In this document: in pieces, positions 2,381 through 18,861 of the stretch
Layout of the letters: the number at the start of each line of letters is the position of its first letter
Numbering within the stretch: the stretch's first letter is position 1
Virus record (IMG/VR): IMGVR_UViG_3300031951_006890
Coordinates: 1 to 30,744 of that record
DNA: 30,744 nt
Reading direction: 5' to 3' (one strand)
From: a virus
Translations under genes and position numbers: made by a program
Notes under the pieces: generated by a model
The model's database searches: none
Told to the model about the DNA's origin: nothing
What the model saw: only the letters and a program-made list of their open reading frames with translations

Positions 2381-3034
2381 ATGCCAGCAGCAATGACCTT
2401 CACAACGCTGAAGAACGATGTTCGAAGCTATCTAGAACGTGGAGGTTCTGCCTCGACAGATCCTCTGGTCTATGCGCAGATTCCAAATTTAATCACGTTA
2501 GCAGAGCGCAGGATCAGTCGCGATCTGAAGATCCAGGGTTTTCAGACGGTCGTCGTCACTACTTTGCAAAGTGGTGTAGCTGTCTTAGCAAAACCAGATC
2601 GCTGGCGTGAGACCATCAGCATGAACGTGGGGACTGGTAACCAAAATAATACCAGAAGCCAAGTGTATCCACGGGCTTATGAGTACTGCCGGATGTATTG
2701 GCCTGACCAAACAGAGGTTGGGACCCCGGAATTTTATGCTGACTACAACTATACAAACTGGCTGCTCGTGCCGACTCCTGATGAGAACTATCCCATCGAG
2801 ATCTTGTATTATGAGCTGCCTGCACTACTTGATGACAACAACCAGATGAACTGGCTCACCGAATACGCCCCGAACTTGCTGTTGTATGCAACTCTTCTTG
2901 AGGCGACCCCATTCTTGAAGAATGATGAGCGGATTCCGATCTGGCAAAACATGTATGCCATGGCAGCACAAGCTTTGAATGGTGAAGACCTGAAGAAGAT
3001 CTTAGACCGTGGCGCCATAAGAAACGAGGCCTGA
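2381..3034 (+). CDS. Head-tail / tail adaptor-like protein
   Basis: A 217-aa soluble protein with GAGAGGAATGCGTA upstream as ribosome binding region. It begins with a helical part (TFTTLKNDVRSYLERGG, then PNLITLAERRISRDLKIQG) and has a central beta-rich part. The C-terminal half carries EILYYELPALLDDNNQMNWL and APNLLLYATLLEATPFLK followed by a helical end. This combination is widespread in podovirus-like genomes and is usually annotated as an adaptor protein of the SU10 type, which joins the portal to the short tail. The genes that follow (fibre-like protein and stabilisation protein) agree with a neck position. The family assignment is from remembered motif pattern and could be wrong in detail; a structural virion role is likely. 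Confidence 0.6.
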   Translation: MPAAMTFTTLKNDVRSYLERGGSASTDPLVYAQIPNLITLAERRISRDLKIQGFQTVVVTTLQSGVAVLAKPDRWRETISMNVGTGNQNNTRSQVYPRAYEYCRMYWPDQTEVGTPEFYADYNYTNWLLVPTPDENYPIEILYYELPALLDDNNQMNWLTEYAPNLLLYATLLEATPFLKNDERIPIWQNMYAMAAQALNGEDLKKILDRGAIRNEA

Positions 3035-3035
3035 T

Positions 3036-4226
3036 ATGACTGTCTACACCAACATCTTTGGCGGATCTAATATCAGTCCGTCGACTGTAAGTTATTCGGC
3101 CGTAACGTTAAATGCAAATACGTCATTTGATTGGCCACTAGAGACGGCCCCATCGTCTAACTTGATGGCCATCATCATGGACGTTACGGCGACGACTCCT
3201 AATCTGATCATGACGCTTCCAGATGCCACTGAGGCATCAAATGGCCAAACGGTCTTGATCAATAACGTGGGTTCAGAAACCTTTATAGTCCAGGACTATC
3301 AGGGAAACCAAGTCATCGCCCCGGTTAGCGGATCGGTTTGGCAAATCTACCTGACCGATAACACCACAACTGGTGGTACTTGGGAGGCGTTTTTATATGG
3401 CGCCCAAGTGTCTACGGCAAATGCGGCGACCTTAGCAGGAACCGGTCTTGTGGCAATAGGCTCATTGCTGTCTCTTGCCATGCCAGTCACCTCATTTAGT
3501 TCCACGTATACCGCAGGGGTTGCTGACAGAGCAAAGACCTTTATTTGGGTTGGGGGAGCCGGTGTCTTAAACCTGACTAATGCAGGAACCGTTGGAGACA
3601 ACTGGTTTATCAATTTAAGAAATGAGGGAACTGGTGCCCTAATTGTGGATCCTGCAGGATCACAACAGATCAATGGATCATCTGGCTTGACGTTCCAGCC
3701 GGGGGATTCTGCAACCATCTTTACCGACGGTGTTGCGTTCTACACGATCGGTTACGGGCAAGCACCTGTCTTTGCATTTGACTATACGTCGATCAATATC
3801 GCGGGTTCGGGTGCCTATACATTGACAGGCTCTGAACTTAACCGGATCTCATACAACTTTACAGGTGCCTTGACAGGTAATCGCAGCGTCATTGTGCCTC
3901 CAACGGTTCAGCAATACTGGGTGGCCAACAATACTACCGGCCCTTATACCCTGACCATCAAGACGGCAGCAGCCACTGGTTCTACAGTTAACCAGGGATC
4001 TAGAACCATCATGTATTGTGATGGCACGAATGTTGTCATTGCAGATACAGGAGGGATCTCCGTTCCAATTGCCATTAGTCAAGGTGGAACAGGGGCCACG
4101 ACTGCCGGCAACGCCTTAATCAATTTAGGAGGCACAGCAACAGGTATTGGTATCTTTACTGCAGCTTCTCAAGCTGCTGCCCAAGTGGCCATTGGCCTTG
4201 ATCCTATCAATGGTGGAACATACTGA
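3036..4226 (+). CDS. Fibre-like or decoration structural protein
   Basis: A 396-aa protein dominated by Thr, Ser, Gly, Asn and Ala with alternating beta-strand sequence and no membrane segment. Near the C-terminus it has PIAISQGGTGATTAGNALIN, the QGGTGATTA(G/A) repeat-linker motif often found in tail fibres before an attachment or tip region. Repeated sub-blocks such as NLIMTLPDATEASNGQTVLI, LNLTNAGTVGDNWFINLR and YTLTIKTAAATGSTVNQGSR look like stacked beta-prism or beta-sandwich units. It sits 1 nt after the adaptor-like gene, and its stop overlaps the next start (TGATG at 4224). It is most likely a fibre or spike near the neck or tail; whether it binds a receptor cannot be told. Confidence 0.6.
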   Translation: MTVYTNIFGGSNISPSTVSYSAVTLNANTSFDWPLETAPSSNLMAIIMDVTATTPNLIMTLPDATEASNGQTVLINNVGSETFIVQDYQGNQVIAPVSGSVWQIYLTDNTTTGGTWEAFLYGAQVSTANAATLAGTGLVAIGSLLSLAMPVTSFSSTYTAGVADRAKTFIWVGGAGVLNLTNAGTVGDNWFINLRNEGTGALIVDPAGSQQINGSSGLTFQPGDSATIFTDGVAFYTIGYGQAPVFAFDYTSINIAGSGAYTLTGSELNRISYNFTGALTGNRSVIVPPTVQQYWVANNTTGPYTLTIKTAAATGSTVNQGSRTIMYCDGTNVVIADTGGISVPIAISQGGTGATTAGNALINLGGTATGIGIFTAASQAAAQVAIGLDPINGGTY

Positions 4227-5875
4227 TGGAAGCTACCCCGGTCATTCTTAAGTCATTACCGGGTATCAAGCGAGACGGTACCAAGTATGAGGGAGATTTT
4301 TATGTTGACGGACAGTGGGTCCGATTTCAACGGGGCTTGCCTCGTAAGATCGGCGGCTATACTGCCATCAACCGCTACTTGTCTGAGATCAGCCGAGGCA
4401 TCAAGACCTACACGGAGAATGGGGGTACGTACTTCCATTCGGGCTCTGCAGGATTTATTGAGCGGTTTGTCATCGATTCCCAAGGGGCTACTAGCCTAAT
4501 CATTAACCGTACACCGCTTACCCTGGCTGTCAATGATGCCAATAAGTGGCAGTTTGACGTGATGTATGACAGCACAGGTCTTCCGCCTGTCAATATGTTA
4601 GTTGCCCAGGTAGCTCCTAACGGTAACTGCATCTGCAACAATGTCGGCGGTCAGTTGTTCGTTGGGGGACTCACAGGTACCGCAGCTCTTCAAGAAGTGA
4701 CTATCTTTCCGGCAGGGGCTAATGTTAACGGCGGCGTTTGCGTCTTGCATCCTTACTTGACCTACTTTGGATCTGACGGCTTCCTTGGATGGTCAGTTGC
4801 TGGGGAACCGACAAACTTGACAGGCATCGGTTCAGGAAATGCTCGTATTGCTGCCCAAAAGATCGTTCGTGGTCTCCCCTTACGTGGGGGTCCTGGTAAT
4901 GCGCCGGCCGGCCTTTACTGGTCTGCTGATGCCGTCATTCGTTGTTCTTTTGTGGGTGGTACTTCTGTCTTCCAGTTTGACACAATTAGCAGCAATTCCA
5001 GTATCTTGAGTCCTAACTCGGTCATTGAGTATGACGGCCAGTATTTTTGGTGCGGCACAGATCGATTTTTGATGTTTAACGGCGTGGTCCGAGAGGTCCC
5101 CAACAACTTAAACATCAACTACTTCTTTGATGGTCTAAATAGGCAAGCTACTCAAAAAGTCTTCTCATTCAAGGTACCTCGCTTTGGTGAGATCTGGTGG
5201 TGTTATCCAAGAGGGGATGCTACTGAATGCACACATGCCGTCATCTTTAACATCAAGGAAAATACCTGGTATGACACAGAACTTCCTAATGGAGGCCGTT
5301 CTGCAGGCGAATTTTCACCGGTGTACGCGGCGCCTTTGCTAACGGGAGTTAGCCAGTCTAGCTTTAGACCTAATAACCGGATCACCGAAAACGACGACTT
5401 GCGGATCACTCAAGAAGGGGATCAAAGGATTATTGAGGCAGAAGAAGGTTATCTGGTCTGGCAGCACGATAGGGGCCGAGATGAAGTTGATGGCCAATTT
5501 ATCACGGCAATCCCGTCCTGGTTTGAGACGGCTGACATGAGCATGCTTGTTGGTGGTAATCCACAAAACAAGTGGATCCGGGTCGAGATGATTGAACCCG
5601 ACTTTGTGCAGTCAGAAAATATGACAGTTCAGTTGACCGGACGGGCAAATGCCAAGGCCAAAGAGGTCCCCGGACCTGAGCGGATCGTCTATGCCAATCC
5701 GTCAACCCCGTATGAGCAAGTTGTCTGGTTCAAAGAAGAACGTCGTGAACTGCGGTTTAAGTTTACCTCAAACACGCTGAATGGTGACTATCAGATGGGC
5801 CAGATCATTGCCCACGTAGCACCTGCAGATGGTAATGTTTTGGGGGCAGTTAATGATGAAAGTGGTTCCACGTGA
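4226..5875 (+). CDS. P22 gp10-like DNA stabilisation / tail-hub protein
   Basis: A 549-aa protein starting MEATPVILKSLPGIKRDGTK, followed by GDFYVDGQWVRFQRGLPRKIGGY. This N-terminus is typical of a large phage family annotated as packaged-DNA stabilisation protein, named after P22 gp10, which closes the portal after packaging and forms part of the short tail. The remainder is beta-rich with repeated blade-like blocks (GQYFWCGTDRFLMFNGVVRE, FGEIWWCYPRGDATECTHAV), consistent with a propeller. It overlaps the upstream gene by TGATG and the downstream gene by GTGA. The structural role is fairly sure; the gp10 equivalence is less so. Confidence 0.6.
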   Translation: MEATPVILKSLPGIKRDGTKYEGDFYVDGQWVRFQRGLPRKIGGYTAINRYLSEISRGIKTYTENGGTYFHSGSAGFIERFVIDSQGATSLIINRTPLTLAVNDANKWQFDVMYDSTGLPPVNMLVAQVAPNGNCICNNVGGQLFVGGLTGTAALQEVTIFPAGANVNGGVCVLHPYLTYFGSDGFLGWSVAGEPTNLTGIGSGNARIAAQKIVRGLPLRGGPGNAPAGLYWSADAVIRCSFVGGTSVFQFDTISSNSSILSPNSVIEYDGQYFWCGTDRFLMFNGVVREVPNNLNINYFFDGLNRQATQKVFSFKVPRFGEIWWCYPRGDATECTHAVIFNIKENTWYDTELPNGGRSAGEFSPVYAAPLLTGVSQSSFRPNNRITENDDLRITQEGDQRIIEAEEGYLVWQHDRGRDEVDGQFITAIPSWFETADMSMLVGGNPQNKWIRVEMIEPDFVQSENMTVQLTGRANAKAKEVPGPERIVYANPSTPYEQVVWFKEERRELRFKFTSNTLNGDYQMGQIIAHVAPADGNVLGAVNDESGST

Positions 5876-6099
5876 TTACGCAGCCCGTTATAATCGGCCT
5901 CAGGGATTGGGCAGACCAGGTGATATTGGACTTGGACAATTACAGTCCCCTTAGGAGGCTAGACGATGAAACACAATGGCAAGAGTGGGGCCTGCAGTTC
6001 TGCGTAATCTCGGGGCTGAGTCAAAAGAATCCACCTAACCCTTATGATTTCACCGACTGGCGAACATGGGCGGAGCGTTTCGTACAGGTGGTTTCATGA
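5872..6099 (+). CDS. Small Trp-rich virion-cluster protein, unknown function
   Basis: A 75-aa protein using a GTG start that overlaps the previous stop (GTGA at 5872). No other start fits. It has five Trp residues in two clusters (DDETQWQEWGLQF and YDFTDWRTWAERFVQ) and no membrane helix. Small proteins with a PxPYxFxDWrxWA ending occur next to neck genes in many podovirus-like genomes, with no known function. Its stop overlaps the start of the acyl carrier protein gene (ATGA at 6096), so its expression is probably coupled to it. Confidence 0.65.
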   Translation: MITQPVIIGLRDWADQVILDLDNYSPLRRLDDETQWQEWGLQFCVISGLSQKNPPNPYDFTDWRTWAERFVQVVS

Positions 6100-6386
6100 C
6101 AGACCAAGATTTTCTCATGCTACTGAAAGAAGTAGCTAAAAAAGCAAAACCGTTTCACGACGAACTATCTCCCATCGAAGATCTTGATCAAGATCTTTCT
6201 GAGACAGGCCTTGATAGCCTAGACATGCTCATGTGCACCGTTTATCTATGTGAGGTCTTTGACATAGAAGACGAAAAAAGCCAGGAGATGCAAGTCAAGA
6301 CTCCTCGCGAATGCATGGATTTTTTGAAACAGTGGGGTCGTAGACAACCTCAAAGCTTTGAAGAAGCAGTCAGGATGTTCCGATGA
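6096..6386 (+). CDS. Acyl carrier protein
   Basis: A 96-aa acidic protein. The start is ATG 6096, which overlaps the previous stop; the open frame runs further upstream, but that stretch lies inside the neighbour gene. The phosphopantetheine attachment motif is clear: LSETGLDSLDMLMCTVYLCE, with Ser41 in the GLDSLDM core. The helix pattern before and after (LLKEVAKKAK; CEVFDIEDEKSQEM; TPRECMDFLKQWGR) matches the four-helix ACP fold. It must be converted to the holo form by a 4'-phosphopantetheinyl transferase, which is not in this window and would come from the host or another part of the genome. It is followed by a ketoacyl synthase gene with an ATGA overlap, so the two probably act together. 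The C-terminal extension after residue 80 (QPQSFEEAVRMFR) is longer than in a typical fatty-acid ACP of about 80 residues. Confidence 0.9.
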   Translation: MTDQDFLMLLKEVAKKAKPFHDELSPIEDLDQDLSETGLDSLDMLMCTVYLCEVFDIEDEKSQEMQVKTPRECMDFLKQWGRRQPQSFEEAVRMFR

Positions 6387-7504
6387 GAATCTTTCTGACC
6401 CTAGAGCGCACCGTGTGTACGGAAGATGCTCAACTCTTTGAAGACCATCCTTTTCCGCAAAAGCTGCACTGGTTTCCTGATACCTATTCCAGGGTCAAGA
6501 CAGGCCTTGTCTGCCCGCCCCATGCAGTTGCCGAAAAGATATTGACCCCTGATTTGTTTTCATTGTTGAAACAAACCCAGCCGGGTAAGACGGCCTTCAT
6601 CCTAGCCTCTGGTAACAGCAACTTTGCTGCCGAGGGTCACAAGATGAAGATCGACAACCAGATGAGCTACAACTATAAGATCCTCCCGTTGTCCCTGACC
6701 CAGATCTACGCAGGCCGGGTTGCTGCGCAGTGCGGGGAGATTGATCACACGGCAACTGACGCCACGGCTTGTACCTCTGGCCTGAAGGTCTTGATGGATG
6801 TACAGACCTTGATCAAGTTTTACGGGTTTGACCGGGTCATTGTCCTAGCTGTTGAAGATCAGGTCAACAATATGACCCTTCAGTTCTTTGGGGAAGCTAA
6901 GGCTACCCTGACAGAAAGCATGGCCAAGACCCATCAAGTCGTTCCTAGCGCCTTTGATGAGAAGAACTTCGGGTTCTATATAGGGCAAGGAGCTGCCTTA
7001 GCAGTTTTCGAGTCTGAGGAAGCCGTACGCCGTTCTGGCTTAGAGATCACGGCTGAACTGGTCTCGGCTTACACGGCTACGGAAGTCTTGACGAACACGA
7101 TCGGCCAACGAGAAGACGGTCAGGGGTTTGTCAGGGCCATTAAAGGAACACTTGAATTTTGTCAAATTAACCCAGAACAAATTAAAATCGTGAAGACTCA
7201 TGGAACTGGGACCAAGTCTAATAATGCGGCCGAAAAAACGGCCCTAGATTCCACCTTGAGTGGGTTTGTAGCGACATCGTATAAGCAGCGAATCGGCCAT
7301 ACGATGGGAGCGAGCGGACTCTTAGAGACCCTCTTGCTGTTCAAAGATTTGGAGAAGGGCATTGTGCCTGAGATCCTCAACCGAACAGAGAGGGACGATC
7401 GATACCTCTCACATCCAGTTGAGGCTCCTGACGGCATGGTGCTCAGTTTGAGTGCTGGCATGGGGAACGTCTTCAGCGCCGCACTGTTTAACGTGAGGAT
7501 CTGA
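6383..7504 (+). CDS. Beta-ketoacyl-ACP synthase (KAS, FabF/FabB-like condensing enzyme)
   Basis: A 373-aa protein, shorter than the usual 410 of FabF. The catalytic triad of decarboxylating condensing enzymes is present: Cys130 in DATACTSGLKVL, His273 in KTHGTGTKSNNAAEKTAL, and His306 in KQRIGHTMGASGLLE, with Lys301 five residues before it as in FabF. Such enzymes condense acyl-Cys with malonyl-ACP to a 3-ketoacyl-ACP. Two departures stand out. The N-terminus lacks the usual FabF opening (MxxRRVVVTG type). The C-terminal GFGGTN loop is replaced by LSAGMGN (residues 356-362), putting Ala358 where FabF has the gating Phe400. It overlaps the ACP gene by ATGA and is followed by a virion-cluster gene after 2 nt, so it is expressed with structural genes. 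Bases look like those of its neighbours, so it is not an obvious recent import. Substrate and product are unknown. Confidence 0.88.
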   Translation: MRIFLTLERTVCTEDAQLFEDHPFPQKLHWFPDTYSRVKTGLVCPPHAVAEKILTPDLFSLLKQTQPGKTAFILASGNSNFAAEGHKMKIDNQMSYNYKILPLSLTQIYAGRVAAQCGEIDHTATDATACTSGLKVLMDVQTLIKFYGFDRVIVLAVEDQVNNMTLQFFGEAKATLTESMAKTHQVVPSAFDEKNFGFYIGQGAALAVFESEEAVRRSGLEITAELVSAYTATEVLTNTIGQREDGQGFVRAIKGTLEFCQINPEQIKIVKTHGTGTKSNNAAEKTALDSTLSGFVATSYKQRIGHTMGASGLLETLLLFKDLEKGIVPEILNRTERDDRYLSHPVEAPDGMVLSLSAGMGNVFSAALFNVRI

Positions 7505-7506
7505 TC

Positions 7507-7965
7507 ATGCCTGTTGTCGATAGCAAACAAGAGATGCTGCCCGTTGGGGACGTTCTGAGGATTGCCGCAGAAAATACCCAAAGCGAGTACGCCGTAGAGT
7601 TCGTCTACGCGACCTTCGTCAAAGAAGTCCAGATGCCAGGGAGCAAGTTTTTTCGCTACGGCAACACCATCTATGTGATTCATGCTTCTGAAAAAGAACC
7701 TCGCAAGGGGATGTTCAGGGCATTGAATGCTGACACCGCCCAGAACTTCATGGCCTCCGGTTTCCAGTTTGTTATTGATGCTTACAAGGCTGGCTTTGAC
7801 ACCCTGGTCACTCAATTCAAAGATCAGAGTCTGATCAATATCTTCCGAAATGTTGCAAAGAACCCGCCAAACCCTGGTATGGGATACAACGTCCAGATGA
7901 TGGACAACGGCGACTATCAGGTTGCTTTGCAGCTAGGAACCCCTCGTGGAGGAGCTGAACAATGA
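7507..7965 (+). CDS. Phage protein of unknown function, possibly with a GNAT-like fold
   Basis: A 152-aa soluble protein without membrane segments. Conserved-looking blocks are FFRYGNTIYVIHASEK (about residues 48-63), GMFRALNADTAQNFMASG, DAYKAGFDTLVTQFKDQS and PGMGYNVQMMDNGDYQVALQ. I recognise the general pattern from other phage genomes, where it sits near internal virion protein genes and carries no firm function. The beta-alpha-beta order and the closing strand recall the GNAT acyltransferase fold, seen also in T7 gp13-type proteins, but no acetyl-CoA binding motif is obvious. It lies between the ketoacyl synthase and the internal proteins and its stop overlaps the next start (ATGA at 7962). 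An acyl-transfer role would fit the neighbours but is only a guess. Confidence 0.6.
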   Translation: MPVVDSKQEMLPVGDVLRIAAENTQSEYAVEFVYATFVKEVQMPGSKFFRYGNTIYVIHASEKEPRKGMFRALNADTAQNFMASGFQFVIDAYKAGFDTLVTQFKDQSLINIFRNVAKNPPNPGMGYNVQMMDNGDYQVALQLGTPRGGAEQ

Positions 7966-10043
7966 CAGCCGTCGTCGAATTTGTTGGGGACGTTATTGGC
8001 GGGGCTGTTGAAGCCGTCGGTAGCGTCGTTGAGGGGGTTGTTGACGTTGTCAAGGACGTGGGTCAAGCCGTCGACAAATACGTCATTCAACCTATCTTAG
8101 ATGATCCACTGACTGCCATAGCTACGATGGCAGGGGCTGCTATCTTAGGACCCATGATTGCTCCCTCACTGGGAGCTTTGGGAACGGCAGGAACCTATGT
8201 AGCAACTGGGGCAGGAGCAGCTGCCGGTAACACGGCAGCAGGCCTTGCTCAAGGTGAAGATTTTGATGAGGCTATCAAAGGCGGCGTGATGGCCGGTATC
8301 ACGTCTGGTGCTGGAGCAGCAGGCTTTGATTATTTAACAGGTGGTGGCGCGTTCTCGCCCGCCGCTGCAGCGGCCACTCCTGATGAGGCCTTGTTAGCTT
8401 CTGCAGCTACCCCTGATACATACTACACTTCACCAAAGCTTTCTAGTCAGCCGGCTAATACGTTGATGCCGGAAACTTATTATCCAACACCAGGGGCTTC
8501 ATCCCTTGTTGATGACCCCATTGAAAACATCATTAGAAATGCAGCGACTCCTGATGATGCATTTTTTACTAGAGATCCTAGTTTATCTAGTCCTGATATA
8601 AGTGGTGAAATAGATAATCTATTTGTTAGAGATCCTTCTTTAACAGATGAGGCAGGCGAAGCTTTTCTTAAAAACCGGCCAGGTTCAGGATCTGCTGCGA
8701 CTAACCTGAATCAACCTTCTCCGCTAAAACCGGAAGTTCCTCAAAATTATTTGCTAGAAGGAGTTAATCTTCCTAGCGAAGGCTTGAAGATTCCGACAAT
8801 TACAAAAGATACTCCACTCAGCTATAAGGGCGGGACAAGCAGCGCTTACGGTTTAGCACCTAACCAAGTTGACTATGACTTACTTGCCGGGATCCCTAAC
8901 ACATCCGTTGGTATCCAGCCTGGTGTCGGTCAGGCCGGCATGAAGGTAGGAGTCGGTGCCCTAGACGACTTTGCTTATGCTGATGGCACACCGGACGTCT
9001 GGACGGGTACAGGTGGTAAGACCTATGGTATGGGGACACCTGAGGGTACCGTGTCGGCTTCGGGATTTGCTCCAAATGTCCCACCTGTTGCGCCATCAAT
9101 GACAGCAGCTACTGAGGGAGCAGGCAAGAGCCTAGGTGATAAGCTGAAGAATTTTGAGTTCAGCGATATCAATATGTCTGACATCGGTAAGGCAGCAATG
9201 AATTATGCTGTCGAGAATCCGCTGACTACCTTAGCCGCTGTAGCCCTTGCCGGTGGCGCCTTGTCAGGTGGCGATCAACCTCCGGGTGGTGGAGCCCCAT
9301 CTCCAGGTGGTACGAGAGATGAAAACTTTGATCGTCCTCTAGACTACTACAATTACCTTCGTGACCAGCAAGCTTATGGCGGTGACTTGACTTCTTACGG
9401 TGAACGCCCAGGTGAGCACAGGTTCTTCTTAAACACGAGGTTTGAGCCGGTTCCTGTCCAGTCTAAGACAGGTGGCCTGATTCAATACAAGCAGCGTTAT
9501 GCCGATGGTGGCATAGCTGGCCCACAAATCGGTATGCCACAGACTCCACAAAACGCTATGAGCCAAAGAGAAGCCGTAATGGCTGCCATGCAACAGCGGG
9601 CTGCCATGGCCAAGCGTCAGGGTGCCTTAGCCCAGATGCAAGGTGGCATGCCAATGGCAGCTCCCCAAGGCATGTCTGGAATGATGCCTCAACAGCCACA
9701 ACCTGCTCGTCAGGGTCCGATCAATCGAAATCCTAAGACGGCCTACTACCAATACGGGACCCCTCCTGGTATGGCAGCAGGTGGTCTGAACATGGTCAGG
9801 AGCATGAATGTTGGTGGCGGTGCTGATGGTAGGTCTGATGACGTTGACGCCTTACTCAGTGACGGCGAATACGTGATCGATGCCGAGACAGTCGCCATGC
9901 TTGGTAATGGATCATCTGAGGCAGGTGCTAGCCGCCTAGATCAGATGAGATCTAGCATCCGCAAACATAAGGGAAAAAACTTGTCACAAGGCAAGATTAG
10001 TCCCGACGCAAAAAGCCCGTTGGCTTATCTGAAGGGAGCTTGA
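7962..10043 (+). CDS. Large internal/ejected virion protein, Gly/Ala-rich
   Basis: A 693-aa protein. The N-terminus has a valine-rich amphipathic region (VVEFVGDVIGGAVEAVGSVV) and a long weakly hydrophobic Gly/Ala stretch (about residues 45-130), both typical of phage proteins that insert into or cross membranes. The middle (about 130-310) is Pro/Thr/Ser-rich with repeats of AATPD and RDPSL. Pro/Gly/Met/Gln-rich linkers lead to a C-terminal block DDVDALLSDGEYVIDAETVA, then GASRLDQMRSSIRKHKGK, a combination found in many podovirus structural proteins. Bases 8400-8830 look more AT-rich than their surroundings. No enzyme motif was found. A role as core or ejection protein is inferred from composition and from the three large genes that follow. 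Confidence 0.6.
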   Translation: MTAVVEFVGDVIGGAVEAVGSVVEGVVDVVKDVGQAVDKYVIQPILDDPLTAIATMAGAAILGPMIAPSLGALGTAGTYVATGAGAAAGNTAAGLAQGEDFDEAIKGGVMAGITSGAGAAGFDYLTGGGAFSPAAAAATPDEALLASAATPDTYYTSPKLSSQPANTLMPETYYPTPGASSLVDDPIENIIRNAATPDDAFFTRDPSLSSPDISGEIDNLFVRDPSLTDEAGEAFLKNRPGSGSAATNLNQPSPLKPEVPQNYLLEGVNLPSEGLKIPTITKDTPLSYKGGTSSAYGLAPNQVDYDLLAGIPNTSVGIQPGVGQAGMKVGVGALDDFAYADGTPDVWTGTGGKTYGMGTPEGTVSASGFAPNVPPVAPSMTAATEGAGKSLGDKLKNFEFSDINMSDIGKAAMNYAVENPLTTLAAVALAGGALSGGDQPPGGGAPSPGGTRDENFDRPLDYYNYLRDQQAYGGDLTSYGERPGEHRFFLNTRFEPVPVQSKTGGLIQYKQRYADGGIAGPQIGMPQTPQNAMSQREAVMAAMQQRAAMAKRQGALAQMQGGMPMAAPQGMSGMMPQQPQPARQGPINRNPKTAYYQYGTPPGMAAGGLNMVRSMNVGGGADGRSDDVDALLSDGEYVIDAETVAMLGNGSSEAGASRLDQMRSSIRKHKGKNLSQGKISPDAKSPLAYLKGA

Positions 10044-10044
10044 T

Positions 10045-11604
10045 ATGGGAGTCCTTGATTTCCTGTTCCAAGGAAGTCCTCCTCCATCCGTTACGACGTA
10101 TGGCGAGACGACAACCGATCTTCCTGCCTGGTACAGTGACTACACACAAGGCCTGATCAGCCGCGCCAACGCGATTGCAGCAGAGCCTTATCGTGCCTAC
10201 GGTGATCAAAGGATCGCTAGCTTGGATCCTGGGCAGACAGCAGCTTATAACAAGACCTTTGATCTTGAGGGGACCTACGCCCCCACAATGACTTCGGCCA
10301 TCTCTTCTGCAACCCAAGGTGGCCAGGGTAGTGCCTTAAATCAAGCATTGCCGTATCTTCAGCAAGCCCAGGGCTACAACCCATATGCCGCATCAGCCCC
10401 TGTATTGGGTGAAGCCAGTAACCTATTGCGCCAGCAAGTCGGCAATACTGCAGGTCTTGCGCAGCCCTACTTTAATCAGGCTTCTGCCTTGACAGGTATC
10501 GGAACCCAAGGGACCGCGGCTCTTGCCAGCCCATACATGCAGCAAGCTAGTCTAGGTACTGCAATTTCTGGCGCTGCAGACACTGCAGGTCTTGCCAATC
10601 CATATATGCAGCAAGCTAGTCAATTAGCTAACCGTGGTGCCGAAACCGGGGTTGGTGGCATTGAGGAATACTTAAACCCGTATCAAGAACAAGTCATTGA
10701 GCGGATCGGTAAGCTAGGTCAACGAAATCTTCGTGAAAATTTGCTTCCAGAGATCCAAGATAGGGCAATAGCAGCAGGCCAATTTGGTGGCAGCCGCCAA
10801 GGCGAAGCTATGGGCCGTGCTATGCGAGACATTCAGGAATCTACCCTGGCTGCCCAATCACAGGCTTTGCAACAGGGCTATGGTCAAGCTGCGCAAAGGC
10901 AAGCAGAAGATCGGGCCCGTCAATTGCAGGCTGCTCAACAACAAGCCCAGTTTGGTCAGCAAGCTGCTCAACTGTCTTCTGCCGATTACCAGCGGCTTCT
11001 GTCAGCAGCAGGTCAGCAAGCGGCTATCGGCCAATCAATGGCAGGTTTGACTTCTGCAGATTATCAGCGTATGTTAGCTGGTGCCCAACAGCAAGCAGCA
11101 ATGGGTCAGGCAGCTTCAGGTTTAGCAGGGGCAGACCTAGCAAGATACGGTCAGGCAGGCGCCCAACTAGGGGCCCTTGGCCAAGTCTATGGAAACATGG
11201 CAGGAGCCACAGCCCAGCAGCTAGCTAACCTTGGTCAGCAAGCCGGCACATTCGCAGGTCAAGACTACACCCGTCAACTGCAAGCTGCCCAACAACTTGG
11301 GACCTTGGGCCAGATGCAACAAGCCATGGGCCTACAGAACATCGGAGCCCTTGAGGCAGCAGGTCAAATGCAACAGCAGCAACAGCAGCGCAATCTTGAT
11401 CAAGCCTACGCCGACTTCTTGTCTCAGCGTGACTACGACCGCAACAACATTGCGTTCCTTAATGCAGCAATTCGTGGTCTTGAGATTCCGACCAGTACGT
11501 CAACGACTTCTACAGGTCCTGGCAGCGTGTATCAACCTTCGCCGCTGTCTCAGCTGGCTCAAGGTGCTGCGACGTACTACGGCTTTAAGAACATGTTTAA
11601 GTGA
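10045..11604 (+). CDS. Gln/Ala-rich internal virion protein with repeats
   Basis: A 519-aa protein, predicted almost wholly helical after residue 60. Residues 207-300 carry a block typical of podovirus virion proteins: EEYLNPYQEQVIERIGKLG, RNLRENLLPEIQDRAIAAGQ, FGGSRQGEAMGRAMRDIQES. Residues 135-195 contain three copies of a PY(M/F)xQAS unit, and residues 309-383 contain about three copies of a 25-residue LxSADYQRxLxxAxQQAAxGQ unit. The C-terminal part has a poly-Gln run (QMQQQQQQRN) and ends YYGFKNMFK. This extended helical repeat protein probably lies inside the capsid or tail, possibly as a DNA-ejection protein. It starts 1 nt after the previous stop. Confidence 0.65.
   Translation: MGVLDFLFQGSPPPSVTTYGETTTDLPAWYSDYTQGLISRANAIAAEPYRAYGDQRIASLDPGQTAAYNKTFDLEGTYAPTMTSAISSATQGGQGSALNQALPYLQQAQGYNPYAASAPVLGEASNLLRQQVGNTAGLAQPYFNQASALTGIGTQGTAALASPYMQQASLGTAISGAADTAGLANPYMQQASQLANRGAETGVGGIEEYLNPYQEQVIERIGKLGQRNLRENLLPEIQDRAIAAGQFGGSRQGEAMGRAMRDIQESTLAAQSQALQQGYGQAAQRQAEDRARQLQAAQQQAQFGQQAAQLSSADYQRLLSAAGQQAAIGQSMAGLTSADYQRMLAGAQQQAAMGQAASGLAGADLARYGQAGAQLGALGQVYGNMAGATAQQLANLGQQAGTFAGQDYTRQLQAAQQLGTLGQMQQAMGLQNIGALEAAGQMQQQQQQRNLDQAYADFLSQRDYDRNNIAFLNAAIRGLEIPTSTSTTSTGPGSVYQPSPLSQLAQGAATYYGFKNMFK
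10969..11193 (+). repeat. Three degenerate 25-codon tandem repeats inside the Gln-rich virion gene
   Basis: The encoded units run from residue 309 to 383 of the host protein. Units 1 and 2 share SADYQRxL and QQAAxGQ; unit 3 is more diverged (LAGADLARYGQAGAQLGALG). A second repeat set lies upstream, where bases 10532-10552 and 10600-10620 are nearly identical and encode PYMQQAS. These are protein-coding repeats, not a non-coding array. Confidence 0.6.
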
Positions 11605-11617
11605 TGAGGGGTAGCAC

Positions 11618-14600
11618 ATGGCGCTGATGAATGAACAAGACGATGATCTCGACACCGGTGGCGTGTCTGATGGACCCAGCGCCGTTGCTGACACCGCAGG
11701 CTACATCTCTCGTTCTGCCCAAAATCCTTACACCAAGGATCTCAATGACCTGTTGAAAAAATACCTTCAGCAGACAGATCGTCAAGCAACAGAAAAAGAA
11801 CGCCTTCTTGACGAGGCACGTGATCGAATCTTAAAAAGATCTTTGGGTCCTAGCGACTCTGAGGTCGCTTTTAGGATTGCTGCCGCCTTAGGTAAGCCAA
11901 CTAGGACAGGCCACTTTTCTGAGGGCCTTGCTAACGTCTCAGAGGCTACCGCAGGGATCTTAGGCGAGCGCCGCAAGTCTCAACAAGAACTAGAAGACCT
12001 TGACCTGAAATATCGGATGGCTGGTTTAGATACCAAGTCTGAAGGTATGAAGACCAAGATCAGTGCCCTGTCTACCCTTGCTAGGTCAGTACCAAAGGAA
12101 AGGGTGCCTGAAGTCATGGCTATGCAAGAGATCATTGATGATCCCAATGCAACAGCTGAAGCTAAAAAGACAGCAAAAGCCCGGATTGACTATCTGACCA
12201 CAAGGGGAGGAGCCCAAAAGGGTACTGAGATAGATCAGCTGATTGCTAAGATCAATGATCCAAATACGCCTCCTGAAGCCAAGCGCATGTACAAGCGTCG
12301 GTATGACAAGCTGGTTCACATACCTCCAAGCGGTGCTGAGGGTGTATCGACTAAGCCGCAATCACCGCAAGGGAAGATTGCCGCAGATGAGGGCTTTGTT
12401 CCAGGTACCACGGACTACAACAGTCGGGTAAAAGATCTAGTCCGTCAAGGTCAAGATAAGCTAAATCCTACAGAACTCAAGATGCAAGACGAGTTAAAGG
12501 ATCGCGTTACTGCCGGTAAAGAAGTCATCTTGACACTTGAAAAGGCCCTGAAGCTAAATGAGGTGGCCTATGAAGGATCAACGGCAGGTGCCCGTGAAGT
12601 TGCCGGACGCCTGGTGCCTTTGGTCCGTAGCAGTGAAGCCCAGACGGCCACTGCAGAGCTGGAGAACCTGATTCTCAGCAATGCGTTGAGCCAACTGAAG
12701 GTGATCTTTGGAGCAGCCCCAACTGAAGGTGAACGCAAGATCTTGGTTGACTTACAAGGCTCAATCAACAAGCCCGCTAAGACTCGTGAGACCATCTGGA
12801 AAAATGCCCAGGCAGCAGCTACTCGTCGCCTTACTGACAACCAGAAGCGGCTGCAAGACTTGGTCAGTGGCGCCTCTGCAAGGAGAGCATCAGACACCCC
12901 TGAAGGTATGGCTGATGGCGGTCCCGTCAAGATGCAAAAGGGTGGTGAACTTAGCGCTGCAAACATTGGTCGGGCAGTAGGCCAGGGACTTGGTTTTGGC
13001 TTTGGTGACGAAGCCGTTGCCAGGGTCCGTGCCAAGATGGAAGGCCGTCCTTATGAAGATGTGCTTCGTGAGGAGCGTGAGTCTTATCAAAAGTTTGCTG
13101 AGAGATACCCAATTACTGCTATCGGTACCGAACTGGTCTCTGGTGCCGTCCCTACAGTGGCTGCCATGTTTGTGCCGGGTACCCAAGTGGCTTCTGCTGT
13201 TGGTGGAGCCCGTATGGCACAAGCTGCCCAAAAGCTAGGCCAAGTCTTGCCTAGATTCATGACAGGCCAGATGGGTAAGGCAACTGCCGTTGGGGCAGGT
13301 ACTGGGGCCATCTCAGGGGCAGGTACTGCGACAGAGGGTGAACGTGGCATGGGTGCCGTGACTGGCGGTGCAACAGGTGCCGTAGCAGGCCCTGTCGTTG
13401 CTAAGGGAGTTGACCTTGGGGTCCGTGGCGCTAAGGCACTAAAGAATGTCGTGTCACCATCGACCCAGAGTGTTGAAGACCGTGCCACCATGAAAGTTTT
13501 GGAGGCCATGAGTCGTGATGAGATGACTCCGGCAGATGTGAGAGCTAAGATGATTGCCGACCAGAAGATGGGAGTCAAACCCATGTTGATGGACGTGACC
13601 CCTTCCACCAAGACACTAGGTGAAGCCGTTGTCACGTTACCAGGTAAAGGCAGGAAGACCCTGGGAACCCCACTAGAGGAACGGCTAGAACAAGGTCGTG
13701 ATTTGGTTGGCGAAAGAACTAGCCGGACCCTGGCCAAGGGCCAAGACTTTACGGCAACCGAAGATTCGTTAGTAGGACGCTTGCGTGCTAATGCCAACAA
13801 CATGTATGACCGCGCCTATGCCCATGGGTCGGTTGACGATACCCGACTTCTGAAAGTCTTGGAAGATGAGACCTTCAAGGATGCATTTAGAGAGGCCCAG
13901 AGAATCGCTAATAAGGAAGCAAGGGCTGCCGAACTCCGTGGCGAGGATCCAAGCAAGTACGTCTTGAATGACATCTATAACCTAGATGCCGATGGTAACA
14001 TGGTCTCAGTTGGCAAGATTCCAGATGTCCGGACCCTTGACTACATCAAGCGAGGCATTGATGCCCTGATTGACAAAGGCTATCAAGGTAAGGGCATGGC
14101 AAAGGCAGAAGCCAACGCACTTAAGGATCTTCGCAAGGCGTACATCGGAGTCATTGACGAGAACGTGCCTGAGTACGCCGCTGCCCGTGCCAAGTATGCC
14201 GGTGACATGGAGGTTCTCGATGCCCTTCGTCTTGGCAAAGATGACTACCTGACACCTAAGATGCTGCCTGAGCAAGCCCGCAAGCTGGTTAGTGGGATGT
14301 CTGATGCCGAGAAAGATGCATTGAGAATTGGAGCCGCCCAGTCGATCTTGACTAAGATCATGGATGCTCCCCAGCAGATCAATGCTGCCCAGCGTGTCAT
14401 TGGTGCCCCTGCTACTCGTAAGCGTCTTGAGGCCTTGTTTGACAACCCAGCCGAATACAAGGTATTTGAGGCAGCTCTCCAGCGTGAAGCCGAACTGTTT
14501 AGGAACGCCCAAGAGGTCATTCGAAATAGTAGGACGGCTAACAAGAAGGAAGCCATTGAAGACTTGAAGAGATCTGCTAATGTCCTAGACGTGGCAGGAG

Positions 14601-14947
14601 AAGCCGTCAATGTAGCCACAGGATCCCCTGGTACCGTGGTGGGTCGTGTTCTTAAGTATCTGCAGGCGAGGTCGACATTAGATGAGCAGACAGCAGGTGA
14701 AGTAGCAACGATGCTGAAGTCGAGCAACTTGCCTGAAGTTGATAGTGTCTTGAGCCGTCTTGAGAAGAGTGCTGGCGAATTTACAAAGCAGCAAGAGAGA
14801 GCAGCTAACCGCATGAAGGCCATCTCAGGGGCTGTAGGAACAGCGTACCCTGAAGGCACCCCTGTCAAGCCTGCAACCGTTCCTGAACCCGCTACCGAGG
14901 AAGACGATGAAGCCACAATTCAACGAATTCTCCGGGAGAATCAGTGA
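11618..14947 (+). CDS. Large multidomain internal/ejected virion protein
   Basis: A 1109-aa protein with GATGAGGGGTAGCAC before ATG 11618. Residues 1-200 are polar and helical with coiled-coil character (RQATEKERLLDEARDRILKR; GERRKSQQELEDLDLKYRMA). Around residues 430-445 a DGG-type junction occurs (GMADGGPVKMQKGGEL). Next comes a Gly/Ala-rich membrane-interacting region starting GRAVGQGLGFGFGDEAVARV (about residues 448-620), a pattern shared by many phage internal proteins. The C-terminal half is helical, with PDVRTLDYIKRGIDALIDKG and VPEYAAARAKYAGDMEVLDA, also common in podovirus ejection proteins. No peptidoglycan hydrolase motif was seen. Its end overlaps the next gene (TGATG). A role in DNA ejection is inferred. 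Confidence 0.65.
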   Translation: MALMNEQDDDLDTGGVSDGPSAVADTAGYISRSAQNPYTKDLNDLLKKYLQQTDRQATEKERLLDEARDRILKRSLGPSDSEVAFRIAAALGKPTRTGHFSEGLANVSEATAGILGERRKSQQELEDLDLKYRMAGLDTKSEGMKTKISALSTLARSVPKERVPEVMAMQEIIDDPNATAEAKKTAKARIDYLTTRGGAQKGTEIDQLIAKINDPNTPPEAKRMYKRRYDKLVHIPPSGAEGVSTKPQSPQGKIAADEGFVPGTTDYNSRVKDLVRQGQDKLNPTELKMQDELKDRVTAGKEVILTLEKALKLNEVAYEGSTAGAREVAGRLVPLVRSSEAQTATAELENLILSNALSQLKVIFGAAPTEGERKILVDLQGSINKPAKTRETIWKNAQAAATRRLTDNQKRLQDLVSGASARRASDTPEGMADGGPVKMQKGGELSAANIGRAVGQGLGFGFGDEAVARVRAKMEGRPYEDVLREERESYQKFAERYPITAIGTELVSGAVPTVAAMFVPGTQVASAVGGARMAQAAQKLGQVLPRFMTGQMGKATAVGAGTGAISGAGTATEGERGMGAVTGGATGAVAGPVVAKGVDLGVRGAKALKNVVSPSTQSVEDRATMKVLEAMSRDEMTPADVRAKMIADQKMGVKPMLMDVTPSTKTLGEAVVTLPGKGRKTLGTPLEERLEQGRDLVGERTSRTLAKGQDFTATEDSLVGRLRANANNMYDRAYAHGSVDDTRLLKVLEDETFKDAFREAQRIANKEARAAELRGEDPSKYVLNDIYNLDADGNMVSVGKIPDVRTLDYIKRGIDALIDKGYQGKGMAKAEANALKDLRKAYIGVIDENVPEYAAARAKYAGDMEVLDALRLGKDDYLTPKMLPEQARKLVSGMSDAEKDALRIGAAQSILTKIMDAPQQINAAQRVIGAPATRKRLEALFDNPAEYKVFEAALQREAELFRNAQEVIRNSRTANKKEAIEDLKRSANVLDVAGEAVNVATGSPGTVVGRVLKYLQARSTLDEQTAGEVATMLKSSNLPEVDSVLSRLEKSAGEFTKQQERAANRMKAISGAVGTAYPEGTPVKPATVPEPATEEDDEATIQRILRENQ

Positions 14948-17900
14948 TGGATGATCTCAAGCGCAAATATGAGGATGGCGGTAAGGCCGAGAAGATCAAG
15001 AACCTGACGGCTTCCTTAAAGGAAGAAAAGAAAAAAGCATCTTCTGCCTTAGACCAGGCCATTGCTGGCTTCAGAAGCCAGTGGGCCGGCATCAATGAGA
15101 AGGGTGAAGTTGGGGTTGGCAAAGGAACCCCTGGCATCTACTACAACACGGCTGCCATCCCATCGCTGCTTGGTTTGGTAGATGAAAAGTACGCCCCCGA
15201 ATTCTCTGTTGAGGCTGATAAGCAAGCAGGGCGAATCAAGGAGGGCGTGCGTAAGCAGATGGGAATTGACGAGCCTAGAGGGGCTCTTCAACACTTTGCT
15301 TATGCCGGTGGCGAGATGTTAGGCCAGATACCTGTGCCAGGAGCCTTATTAAACAAGGCCCTTGGTACCGTCAAGAAGGCAGGCGTAGCAGGTAAGGTAG
15401 CAGCGGCTCCTGTGGAATACCTGTCTCCTATTGTGGATCCTAAGGCCATCAATTACGGGATTGGAACCGGTTTTGGTGGGACCATCGGCGTCATTGGCGA
15501 AGCCCTTGAGGACCCAGTAAAGAAAGAACTGGGTGGCCTGATTCAGAAGTATGAAAAGGGTGGCAAGGTCGGCCGATTCTTTTCAGCCATTGACAAGGCC
15601 ATCGAGACCCTGAAACAAAAGAAGGGTACCGGCGAACAGATCCTTAAGCAACTTGAGACGACTCCCGGTGTCAAGAAAGAAGAACTTGAGACCCGTGGTA
15701 TCCGTCAAAAGCTGCAGACTGCACCTAAGATCACTCAGGAAGAGCTACGGCAAGCTGCTCAGCGTAACAAGGCCCCCATTCCCCAACGGACCATCTTGGG
15801 AGCCGGGGTTCCTGAGGACTATGAGTTTAAGCTGACCGATAAAAATAAAAACATCTTGCAGAAATATGAAATTGAACCCATTGTCAATCCTGAAGACAGG
15901 ACGAACATGGGGTTTTTTGATGAAAGAACGGGTGACGTCATTGATCCTGAGACCATCTTAAGGATGGGACCAGAAGATATTGATGTTAGGTCTCCTCAAG
16001 ATTATCAAGACTTGATGGTAGCTTTTAGGGCTGCCAACAAACGTTTCCAAATAGATCTTGATAAGTACGAGACCAAGTACAAACAATGGAGCCAACCAGG
16101 TGGTGAGAACTACAGGGAAGTCATGGTTCACTTGCCTGAATCTGCATCTGCAGGCCTTAGCACAAAGCGAAACCGTTTAGCAGAGTTATTAGGCGGCAAG
16201 AACGTGTATGAGCTAGATCCTGAGTCTAGATTCGAGGCCATGACCTTAATGGATGACTTGATGGTTCCTGCAGAAGAATTTGTAGCCGGACATTACGACA
16301 CGCCTAATATCTTGACGCACTTCAGGATCAGTGACCGTGTTGGCCCTAATGACGAGAAAGTCTTATATGTCGACGAGATCCAATCTGACTGGCATCAAAA
16401 GGCCCGGGATGCTCGTAAAAAGTATATTCAGACCGTCATCAATAAAGAGCGGGATGCTATACATCAGAAGACAATAGAACAACTTAGAGCTTCTGGAAAA
16501 CTTGATGTTACTCCTGAAAATGAACGTGAACTTATAAAAATCAAAAATCGTTTGACAAGGGAACGTATGGCAGAACTTGAAAAAGAACTGCCTAAAGACT
16601 TTGGTTATCGTAAACCTGGAGATGAAAAAATTCTATCGGGTCTTAAAGAAGAGTTAAGTCGTATTCGTAGAGATGGATTGACCATAGACGAGATTGCGGA
16701 ACACTACAAGCCCGGATCGGTAGTCAAGAGTGACATGGGATATGAAAAAGTCTTGTCATTTAACACCGGAGAAAACTCGCCTGCATATCAACGGGAATAC
16801 GACAGGGCTTTAGAGAGGGCCTTGAGCATCGGCAATGTTGACGAAGAAACGGCTAAGCAGTACGCTAGGAACAAGGCCCTTGAAGCTTCAAAGTACGATT
16901 GGTCCGTCAACGTGATTTCTTTTGATCCTGTAGCTGGAAAGCCTATTCGTGGGGCTATGGAAAGGCAGCACTCTACGTCTCCTCATCGTGAAATTATGTT
17001 TGATTTAGCTGCAAAAATAGACTCTTTTGATATTAAGAAACCAGATGCCCCTTTCAAAGATACCTGGCATGAGCTGGCCGTTAAGGAGATCTTTGACATA
17101 GCTGCCAAAGAAGGCTATGACAAGGTTGCCTTTAGCCCAGGCATTGAACAAATCAAGCGGTACAGCAATGAGATGCGTAAGGCCATTGATGAGATCAAGG
17201 TCAATCCTTATAACGACGGAAGAATAATCGTCTCTGCCTTAAAAGATGGTAACACCGTATTTATGGGAGAAGCTGCTGAAGGCATCTTTACTACGGGTCC
17301 TGCCAAAGGCAAGACAGTATCGGAAGTCTTTGGGTCAAACATCGCAAAGCAAATTGAAGAACCTTCTGAAAATATTTCTAGTGCCCAAGCTATACCCATG
17401 CCTGGGATGTCAGCTGACGAGCTTTTGGCCACTCACGGTGATCAGATGACAAGAGAGCAACGTTCTTGGTTAAACCAGTTTATTAAAGACTGGGAAAAAA
17501 ATGTAAATTCGGATGACGTTGAAAAAATAGACGAATTGACAAATTCCTATAATCAATGGCTTAGTACCCAAACGTTAGGGCCTGAAACCCCTTCTGGTCA
17601 GATGAGAACCATCACTGGCGAAGACTTAGCCGTTGGTGGTGAAGGCATGAAGTCGTTCTATGACAAGCGGGTTCCCGACTTCGTGAGAAGCTACGCCGGT
17701 AAGGAGTTTGACGCTAAGACCGGGTATGAAGACATCGTCATGACCGGAGGAAGACAAGGGGCTCCAACCTGGCAAGAGATAGAGGACATGATCGATACCC
17801 TAAGTCTTGACGACGAAGATGTCAGTCGGACAATAGGCTACCACATGAATGAGGAAGTTGAGAACGTCTTGTCAAGGAGAGGCATCACTGATGCCGATCC

Positions 17901-18861
17901 AAACTATGACAGCATGTACAACGATACGTACAACAATTTGCCTTTTTCTACGGTAGACCGCATCAATGAAATAGGTCTACGAGAAGCTGCCGAAGGACGT
18001 TTGAAGAAACAAGAAGGCAAGACACTGCGCGCCTTCACGGTTGACGTGACCCCAAAGATGAGAGAGCGGATCCAGGCAGAAGGCCAACGGCTCTTTGCCG
18101 CGGCCCCTGTCGTAGGACTGGGAGTTGCACAAACGGAACAACCGGCCTTTGACCCAGAAGGATCTGACTACGACTACGAGACCGCAAAGTCTGCTGGCAT
18201 GGCCCCTGAGGAGTCTGGTGAGAACCAAGGCCATTGGGGATCCGTAACCCAGACAAGGCCAGAAGACCGCCAGAAGTACGGCTTGCCAGAGGACAGCTAC
18301 ATGCTGTTAAAAGGTCGGCAACATGAGACCTGGAACCTGGCAGAAGAGGCCGAAAAAGAACGCGGTGCGGAGATCATCAAGCGAGGAAATAGGTACTTCT
18401 CTGTGCCTAAGGGATCCATTGCCCCTGAACCATCCCAGGAACCCCTAGGAGGTCCCCAGGGCTTTCAGGATGGTGGGAAAGTAGGGATGGTTAGGAAAGC
18501 TGCTGAAAAGTTCTCTGAGGCCCTCAGGGGAGCCCAAGAGCAAAAAATGCTGCAGGGCGTCTACCGGGGTTACGCCGGAGACTACGACACAGCCAAGGCG
18601 TCTGAGGCGTCTGGTCTGATTTATGCCAGCCCGCAAAGAAGGGCTGCCGAAGTCTACGCTAACCGTCGTGCCCAGCAAATGCAATCCGACCCTCACATCG
18701 AGATGTTGATGGTCGATCCGTTTGGCCGTGGAAAGTATGGCCACTCTGTCATGACCAAGGCCAGTGAGGAACCAATCATCACTCAGGCCAGGGAATTGCG
18801 GCCAGAAGATGTTAAGTCGGTAACAAAGCTTAAGAAGCGCGGGGGATTGGCTCAAAATTAG
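14947..18861 (+). CDS. Giant polyvalent-type virion protein (predicted to be injected)
   Basis: About 1304 aa. I chose ATG 14947, which overlaps the previous stop as TGATG; GTG 14944 would add one residue. Domains in order: charged start with KYEDGGKAEK; Gly-rich hydrophobic segment near residues 110-190; a block starting KKGTGEQILKQLETTPGVKK and continuing EELETRGIRQKLQT (about 226-265); EIQSDWHQKARD (about 478-489); FDIAAKEGYDKVAFSPGIEQ (about 715-735) followed by IKRYS; and DYDYETAKSAGMAPEESGEN with GHWGSV (about 1074-1100). The EIQSDWHQ and GYDKVAF-type blocks are hallmarks of phage polyvalent proteins, large multidomain proteins carried in virions and injected with DNA. AT-rich islands at about 16430-16690, 16920-17060 and 17460-17570 interrupt these blocks. 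A hairpin spans the stop codon. Biochemical activity is unknown. Confidence 0.7.
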   Translation: MDDLKRKYEDGGKAEKIKNLTASLKEEKKKASSALDQAIAGFRSQWAGINEKGEVGVGKGTPGIYYNTAAIPSLLGLVDEKYAPEFSVEADKQAGRIKEGVRKQMGIDEPRGALQHFAYAGGEMLGQIPVPGALLNKALGTVKKAGVAGKVAAAPVEYLSPIVDPKAINYGIGTGFGGTIGVIGEALEDPVKKELGGLIQKYEKGGKVGRFFSAIDKAIETLKQKKGTGEQILKQLETTPGVKKEELETRGIRQKLQTAPKITQEELRQAAQRNKAPIPQRTILGAGVPEDYEFKLTDKNKNILQKYEIEPIVNPEDRTNMGFFDERTGDVIDPETILRMGPEDIDVRSPQDYQDLMVAFRAANKRFQIDLDKYETKYKQWSQPGGENYREVMVHLPESASAGLSTKRNRLAELLGGKNVYELDPESRFEAMTLMDDLMVPAEEFVAGHYDTPNILTHFRISDRVGPNDEKVLYVDEIQSDWHQKARDARKKYIQTVINKERDAIHQKTIEQLRASGKLDVTPENERELIKIKNRLTRERMAELEKELPKDFGYRKPGDEKILSGLKEELSRIRRDGLTIDEIAEHYKPGSVVKSDMGYEKVLSFNTGENSPAYQREYDRALERALSIGNVDEETAKQYARNKALEASKYDWSVNVISFDPVAGKPIRGAMERQHSTSPHREIMFDLAAKIDSFDIKKPDAPFKDTWHELAVKEIFDIAAKEGYDKVAFSPGIEQIKRYSNEMRKAIDEIKVNPYNDGRIIVSALKDGNTVFMGEAAEGIFTTGPAKGKTVSEVFGSNIAKQIEEPSENISSAQAIPMPGMSADELLATHGDQMTREQRSWLNQFIKDWEKNVNSDDVEKIDELTNSYNQWLSTQTLGPETPSGQMRTITGEDLAVGGEGMKSFYDKRVPDFVRSYAGKEFDAKTGYEDIVMTGGRQGAPTWQEIEDMIDTLSLDDEDVSRTIGYHMNEEVENVLSRRGITDADPNYDSMYNDTYNNLPFSTVDRINEIGLREAAEGRLKKQEGKTLRAFTVDVTPKMRERIQAEGQRLFAAAPVVGLGVAQTEQPAFDPEGSDYDYETAKSAGMAPEESGENQGHWGSVTQTRPEDRQKYGLPEDSYMLLKGRQHETWNLAEEAEKERGAEIIKRGNRYFSVPKGSIAPEPSQEPLGGPQGFQDGGKVGMVRKAAEKFSEALRGAQEQKMLQGVYRGYAGDYDTAKASEASGLIYASPQRRAAEVYANRRAQQMQSDPHIEMLMVDPFGRGKYGHSVMTKASEEPIITQARELRPEDVKSVTKLKKRGGLAQN

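Follow-up and report, generated by a model that had tools for sequence, protein, structure and literature searches.

N-myristoylation of the capsid proteins of animal viruses is carried out via the host N-myristoyltransferase with acyl-coenzyme A (acyl-CoA). Other acyl transfers draw on a carrier protein; among the enzymes concerned, FeeM and the LuxI-type N-acyl-homoserine lactone (AHL) synthases are kin of the GNAT enzymes. N-acyl amino acid synthases such as FeeM depend on acyl chains bound to acyl carrier protein (ACP) (PMC8762209), and RtxC and ApxIC, which have a GNAT fold without the CoA elements, use acyl-ACP as the donor to fatty-acylate a membrane-acting protein (PMC8339906). Phages are known to encode carriers, as lone ACPs have been reported for Erythrobacter R6L, Alteromonas R22Y and Vibrio R16F (PMC5463345, PMC11705849, PMC10152775) and the fabG-acpP-fabF set is found in roseobacter prophages (PMC8224337). 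Here we describe an ACP gene, a gene for a β-ketoacyl-ACP synthase (KAS) and a gene for a GNAT-fold protein that lie side by side (6096-7965) in the virion operon of the IMG/VR virus contig IMGVR_UViG_3300031951_006890, the 30,744 bases of which constitute the window analysed. They are followed by a gene for an internal virion protein starting at 7962, referred to below, like other genes of the window, by its first position.

We put the chances close to even that 6096-7965 is a dedicated acylation cassette for this internal virion protein, in which the GNAT protein would move an acyl group from the ACP to the 7962 protein. The broader proposal, that tailed phages encode their own lipidation machinery (carrier, chain-setting synthase and N-acyltransferase), with which they attach a fatty acyl group to the N-terminus of a DNA-ejection protein, is offered somewhat more tentatively. 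The cassette resembles RtxC, HlyC and ApxIC in its GNAT fold, in the lack of the usual CoA-binding elements, in its presumed acyl-ACP donor and in having a putative, membrane-acting acceptor encoded next door. It differs from them in its dedicated ACP and KAS and no sequence kinship to them was found, and whereas those enzymes modify internal lysines of a toxin, the acceptor proposed for the phage is the N-terminus of a virion protein; the likeness to RtxC is best taken as a functional analogy. FeeM and the LuxI-type synthases are acyl-ACP-dependent N-acyltransferases, as proposed for the phage GNAT protein, but act on small-molecule acceptors and are not known from phage virion operons. Lone phage ACPs and the roseobacter prophage sets share a phage-encoded ACP with the window, in prophages together with FabF, but the prophage sets keep the bacterial fab order with fabG, and neither a virion-operon cassette nor a GNAT partner has been reported for them. 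The animal-virus capsids bear an N-terminal lipid on a membrane-acting virion protein, as in the proposed model, but rely on a host enzyme and acyl-CoA where the phage would itself encode both carrier and transferase.

There is still only a partial understanding of how short-tailed phages drive an ejection channel across the host envelope, and lipidation of an ejection protein by phage enzymes would, if true, supply a concrete and testable membrane-anchoring step. It would also amount to a phage equivalent of the N-myristoylation of animal-virus capsids, one in which a virion protein is acylated from acyl-ACP by enzymes of the virus itself, and would reveal a new viral use of ACP, hidden by 'auxiliary metabolic gene' labels, in a large group of uncultured phages that has hundreds of members in environmental data. 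Our literature search, which left most subscription journals outside, found no paper on the cassette, on its link to the virion protein or on fatty acylation of phage virion proteins. In the related phage MW202545 the KAS is annotated and the ACP and GNAT proteins are left hypothetical, and in PHROGs both the KAS and the ACP family are filed under 'unknown function'.

Three genes in fixed order, present in nested states

The initial annotation of the window described a pair of ACP and KAS genes, embedded among virion genes through 4-nucleotide overlaps or gaps of a few bases. The placement and the joints were borne out, as the neighbours encode SU10-type adaptor, P22-type structural and ejection-protein-like proteins; ATGA overlaps join a 75-residue gene to the ACP gene (6096-6099), the ACP to the KAS gene (6383-6386) and the GNAT gene to 7962, and a gap of 2 nucleotides separates the KAS stop from the start at 7507. 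The unit itself is larger than this pair and comprises at least three genes, since 7507-7965 belongs to it too.

More than 500 viral stretches encode relatives of the KAS, and those examined agree in gene order, so the presence of ACP and KAS at this site is not a matter of chance. The best-scoring KAS-bearing contigs were fetched, giving 124 distinct KAS proteins for neighbour counts in which the denominators are loci with room on the contig. The KAS gene is immediately preceded by the ACP gene in all 121 distinct loci and immediately followed by the GNAT gene in 108 of 109; the pair is indeed conserved at this place in related phages, at a fixed site in a broad phage group. A phage-like contig with ACP, KAS and GNAT genes (L105) is binned in a Balneolaceae metagenome-assembled genome (JAGYJQ010000016), which may be a hint of the host or a binning error.

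Searches with the GNAT protein and with the left-hand 75-residue neighbour brought out the other states of the locus. All three genes are missing from Caulobacter phages GB2A and RLK (L103, L104), of the same species as Caulobacter phages RW and KcrB, and from contigs L412, L446 and L447. The GNAT gene stands alone in L265, L305, L430, L443 and L445, and ACP and GNAT genes occur without KAS in L245, L250-L252, L254, L264 and L425, several of which retain a KAS remnant of ~30 codons. On contigs that extended far enough, a full-length ACP or KAS gene was never seen at this site without the GNAT gene. The simple reading of this nested order is that the KAS serves the ACP and the ACP serves the GNAT protein. 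After loss of the KAS, the ACP serine is kept and the ratios of non-synonymous to synonymous change (dN/dS) are 0.04-0.16 for the ACP and 0.04-0.09 for the GNAT gene, indicating from the sequences that both are still under purifying selection once the KAS is deleted. Several KAS-less relatives also keep the 7962 N-terminus. In a separate observation, the otherwise nearly invariant FRALNADT motif is altered in the GNAT-only contigs L430, L443 and L445, as if the site were relaxing once the ACP had gone.

A virion-protein N-terminus that follows the GNAT gene

The 693-residue product of 7962-10043 is a likely internal virion or ejection protein, with an N-terminal domain (7962-8300, + strand) that we propose as the acylation target on the basis of residue 2, the hydrophobic moment and its replacement where the GNAT gene is missing. 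In cassette phages the gene after the GNAT gene starts M-[S/G]-A-V-V. Residue 2 is Ser or Gly in 143 of 156 proteins and Ser, Gly, Ala or Thr in 152, residue 4 is Val in 137, and M-[SG]-A-V is kept across very divergent phages. The first 60 residues are hydrophobic (mean grand average of hydropathy +0.80, vs -0.27 past residue 120), and the predicted helix is amphipathic from the first residue, with a hydrophobic moment of 0.46 vs 0.18 for shuffled sequences and 0.13-0.21 for the proteins of GNAT-less loci; an Ala/Gly-rich hydrophobic stretch follows it. Lysine is absent from the first 30 residues of 112 of 152 proteins, which speaks against a conserved lysine target there.

The remainder of the protein (8301-10043, +) contains a C-terminal DGRSDDV...GEYV domain common to cassette-free phages, and this domain was used to find loci without the GNAT gene. 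Sixty-four such loci with room on the contig were found, 63 of which carry an unrelated, hydrophilic N-terminus. The lone exception, L510, carries at the GNAT position a 154-residue gene (3160-3624) whose product weakly resembles the GNAT family at profile level (hhalign E 1.5e-4, probability 51%). The reverse search, with the N-terminal domain, found the GNAT gene in 41 of 41 loci, many of them on contigs already in the set. L522 was considered as an exception and rejected, since a distinct gene with the start MGAVASFV comes after its GNAT gene. Within the clade of the window, L412 combines the loss of the three genes with an exchanged N-terminus. In a tree of the P22-type structural protein encoded at 4226, six independent differences in GNAT presence were found; on average, 4.9 of these were matched by a change of the N-terminus in the same direction and 0 by one in the opposite direction. 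L510 was counted as GNAT-bearing in this test. The initial annotation took loss of the pair without any other change as an argument against its reading. Such loss was seen for the KAS only, whereas loss of all three genes accompanies replacement of the 7962 N-terminus.

The gene in the GNAT slot of L510 is itself followed by a virion gene with an amphipathic start, and may be a distant version of the same transferase. The C-terminal domain is also shared by three cyanophage records of identical length (OQ594354, OL906435, PP438419), under unrelated names such as 'calcium-binding protein'.

A GNAT fold without the CoA motif

The third cassette gene (7507-7965, +) encodes a 152-residue putative acyl-ACP-dependent N-acyltransferase, an assignment that draws on an AlphaFold model, Foldseek, VIA and synteny. 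The model has GNAT topology (pLDDT 91.3, pTM 0.84) and is matched by Foldseek to GNAT enzymes at E values of 3e-5 and up, the AHL synthase TofI among them; the BFVD entry 'internal virion protein A' has the same fold. RimI, a protein N-alpha-acetyltransferase, came first in VIA-align (Z 11.4, root-mean-square deviation 3.1 Å, 124 residues aligned), tied with several others. At the sequence level the product has no useful match in Pfam, NCBIfam or the PDB, and no Pfam acetyltransferase model matched any of 37 family members. The CoA pyrophosphate motif [RQ]xxGx[GA] is not found between β4 and α3 of the window protein; it occurs in just 15 of 172 distinct members, the other 157 being without it anywhere. 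No RtxC model appeared among the Pfam matches of the 37 members, and the absence of RtxC from the fold matches listed was not counted as evidence either way.

Carrier protein and ketoacyl synthase

The ACP (6096-6386, +; 96 residues) was identified by Pfam, alignment and model. Its PP-binding score of 19.5 bits falls just under the Pfam cut-off of 20.8, and three divergent relatives have no PP-binding match. Asp40, Ser41 and Asp43 are invariant in 58 divergent relatives, and the serine of the DSLD motif of E. coli AcpP is present in the phage protein. The predicted structure is a helical bundle (pLDDT 92.3), for which the top-ranked PDB matches are ACPs (probability ~0.97), albeit weak ones (best E 0.1).

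The FabF-like KAS (6383-7504, +; 373 residues), identified by Pfam and alignment with FabF as an elongating synthase of the thiolase-fold type, exceeds the curated Pfam cut-offs (PF00109, 33.2 bits; PF02801, 60.8 bits; vs 20.8). The residues named in the initial annotation, Ser41 in D-S-L-D of the ACP and Cys130, His273 and His306 of the KAS, are correct, the latter three aligning with catalytic positions of E. coli FabF: Cys130, His273, Lys301 and His306 correspond to Cys163, His303, Lys335 and His340. None of the four is replaced in any of the 148 distinct relatives. The Cys-His-His triad and the lysine are thus common to both enzymes, but the phage KAS is only 24% identical to FabF, has a shortened N-terminal half and carries Ala358 and Met360 in place of the gate residues Phe398 and Phe400. 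The gate loop reads GMGN (GFGG in FabF) in 144 of the 148 relatives, and the phage KAS misses the NCBIfam fabF equivalog threshold (123.4 vs 493.75 bits). Bacterial-like KAS sequences with 25-29% identity were also found in unannotated Listeria, Enterococcus and Staphylococcus 'phage' records (MT83xxxx, OR84xxxx); they may be host DNA and were set aside.

Proposed mechanism and alternatives

The results suggest a model in which the host would load the phage ACP with phosphopantetheine and host fatty acid synthesis would supply the ACP with an acyl chain. The host is credited with the loading and with the other steps of fatty acid synthesis because no phosphopantetheinyl transferase gene and no FabG-type short-chain dehydrogenase/reductase gene was found in 20 cassette records, some of which are fragments. 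The phage KAS, useful but dispensable, would extend or select the chain, and the GNAT protein would transfer it from the ACP to an amine on the 7962 protein, most likely the alpha-amine of the Ser or Gly N-terminus exposed after removal of Met. The acylated amphipathic helix may then help the ejection protein into the host membrane at DNA entry, as an aid to insertion during injection. The initial annotation had listed acylation of a virion component among several roles for a late-operon pair. This role fits best with the fixed site, the GNAT gene and the tie to the 7962 N-terminus, and no positive evidence was found for the change of the host surface or the membrane at lysis that had also been suggested.

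Several observations weigh against the model. The independent-pairs test on the tree is borderline (median p 0.06), and among the 51 tree rows with a GNAT gene, 8 do not pass the strict criterion on hydropathy and residue 2. Residue 2 is small in the control gene 10045 as well (Ala, Gly, Ser or Thr in 111 of 120 proteins), which weakens residue 2 by itself as a mark of an acylation site; the claim rests on the combination of residue 2, amphipathicity and co-occurrence with the GNAT gene. No sequence homology of the GNAT protein to any characterised acyltransferase was found, and a common fold, here a predicted one, does not establish function. Since GNAT-only phages exist, the phage ACP is not always needed by the GNAT protein. 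Finally, in L188 (1223-2592) an ACP-KAS pair lies behind a helicase-like gene (SNF2-type by eye) and ahead of small non-virion genes, with no GNAT gene adjacent. It is the only relocated copy of the pair seen.

The best-surviving alternative, although an unlikely one, is that the ACP, KAS, GNAT and 7962 N-terminal domain form one recombination block, and that the enzymes act together on another substrate, which could be a different protein of virion or host or a small molecule, for example in making an N-acyl amino acid. The associated sequences are adjacent, and co-inheritance by recombination could mimic a functional link; acyl-ACP is also the donor for N-acyl amino acid synthases (PMC8762209), and TofI is among the structural matches described above. 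The block, however, ends within the 7962 gene, at the transition from an exchanged N-terminal part to a retained C-terminal one, so that the unit extends into the virion protein. Linkage alone also accounts poorly for an M-[SG]-A-V start held across very divergent phages, and a late virion-operon site would be odd for the synthesis of a secreted metabolite.

A slightly less probable proposition is that the GNAT protein acts without catalysis in the assembly of the ejection protein, positionally like T7 gp13, or is a plain N-terminal acetyltransferase, with the ACP and KAS in structural or regulatory roles. T7 gene 13 occupies the same relative place, between tail and internal virion genes, and both the fold shared with 'internal virion protein A' and the relatives with the GNAT gene alone would fit such a role. 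A structural role would not, however, need the ACP serine and the four KAS catalytic residues, which none of the relatives examined has lost. Profile comparison gave no link to T7 gp13 (PF11090) either (hhalign probability 0.5%; no PF11090 match in the window or the 37 members), and kinship with that protein was rejected.

It is more doubtful still that the pair consists of auxiliary metabolic genes that boost or redirect host fatty acid synthesis, with effects on membrane fluidity, lysis or the envelope. Lone phage ACPs and the prophage fabG-acpP-fabF sets have been read in this way (PMC11705849, PMC8224337), and the L188 pair does lie near a helicase-like gene. The fixed virion-operon site and the strict coupling to the GNAT gene and the 7962 N-terminus argue otherwise, as do the lack of reductase and phosphopantetheinyl transferase genes in the 20 records and the dispensability of the KAS while ACP and GNAT stay. 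Acylation of lysine side chains on the 7962 or another ejection protein is the least probable reading, with a precedent in RtxC, which combines a GNAT fold, acyl-ACP and lysine targets (PMC8339906), but with no lysine position above 15% occupancy in the first 45 residues of the 7962 proteins and 39 of 152 proteins lysine-free over the first 60, figures that cover this N-terminal part only.

Virion operon and neighbouring genes

The proposed acylation cassette sits in a run of genes on one strand (2381-18861), joined by overlaps or short gaps. The run includes, in order, an SU10-type adaptor, a tail-fibre-like protein, the P22-type structural protein (4226), the 75-residue gene (5872), ACP (6096) and KAS (6383), followed by the 152-residue GNAT gene (7507), the 693-residue virion protein (7962), an ejection-protein-like gene (10045) and two large internal proteins. 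The cassette genes are also present, at 100% protein identity, in the 55.6-kb contig IMGVR_UViG_3300031963_000186. The 75-residue gene (5872-6099, +) is a conserved, fixed left neighbour of the ACP, as established by tblastn and by synteny from hidden Markov model searches, and is also found in cassette-free phages, such as Caulobacter phages GB2A and RLK. The product of 10045-11604 and its relatives have a conserved N-terminus of their own, M-[A/G]-x-x-DFLFQG, which is kept in the cassette-free L412.
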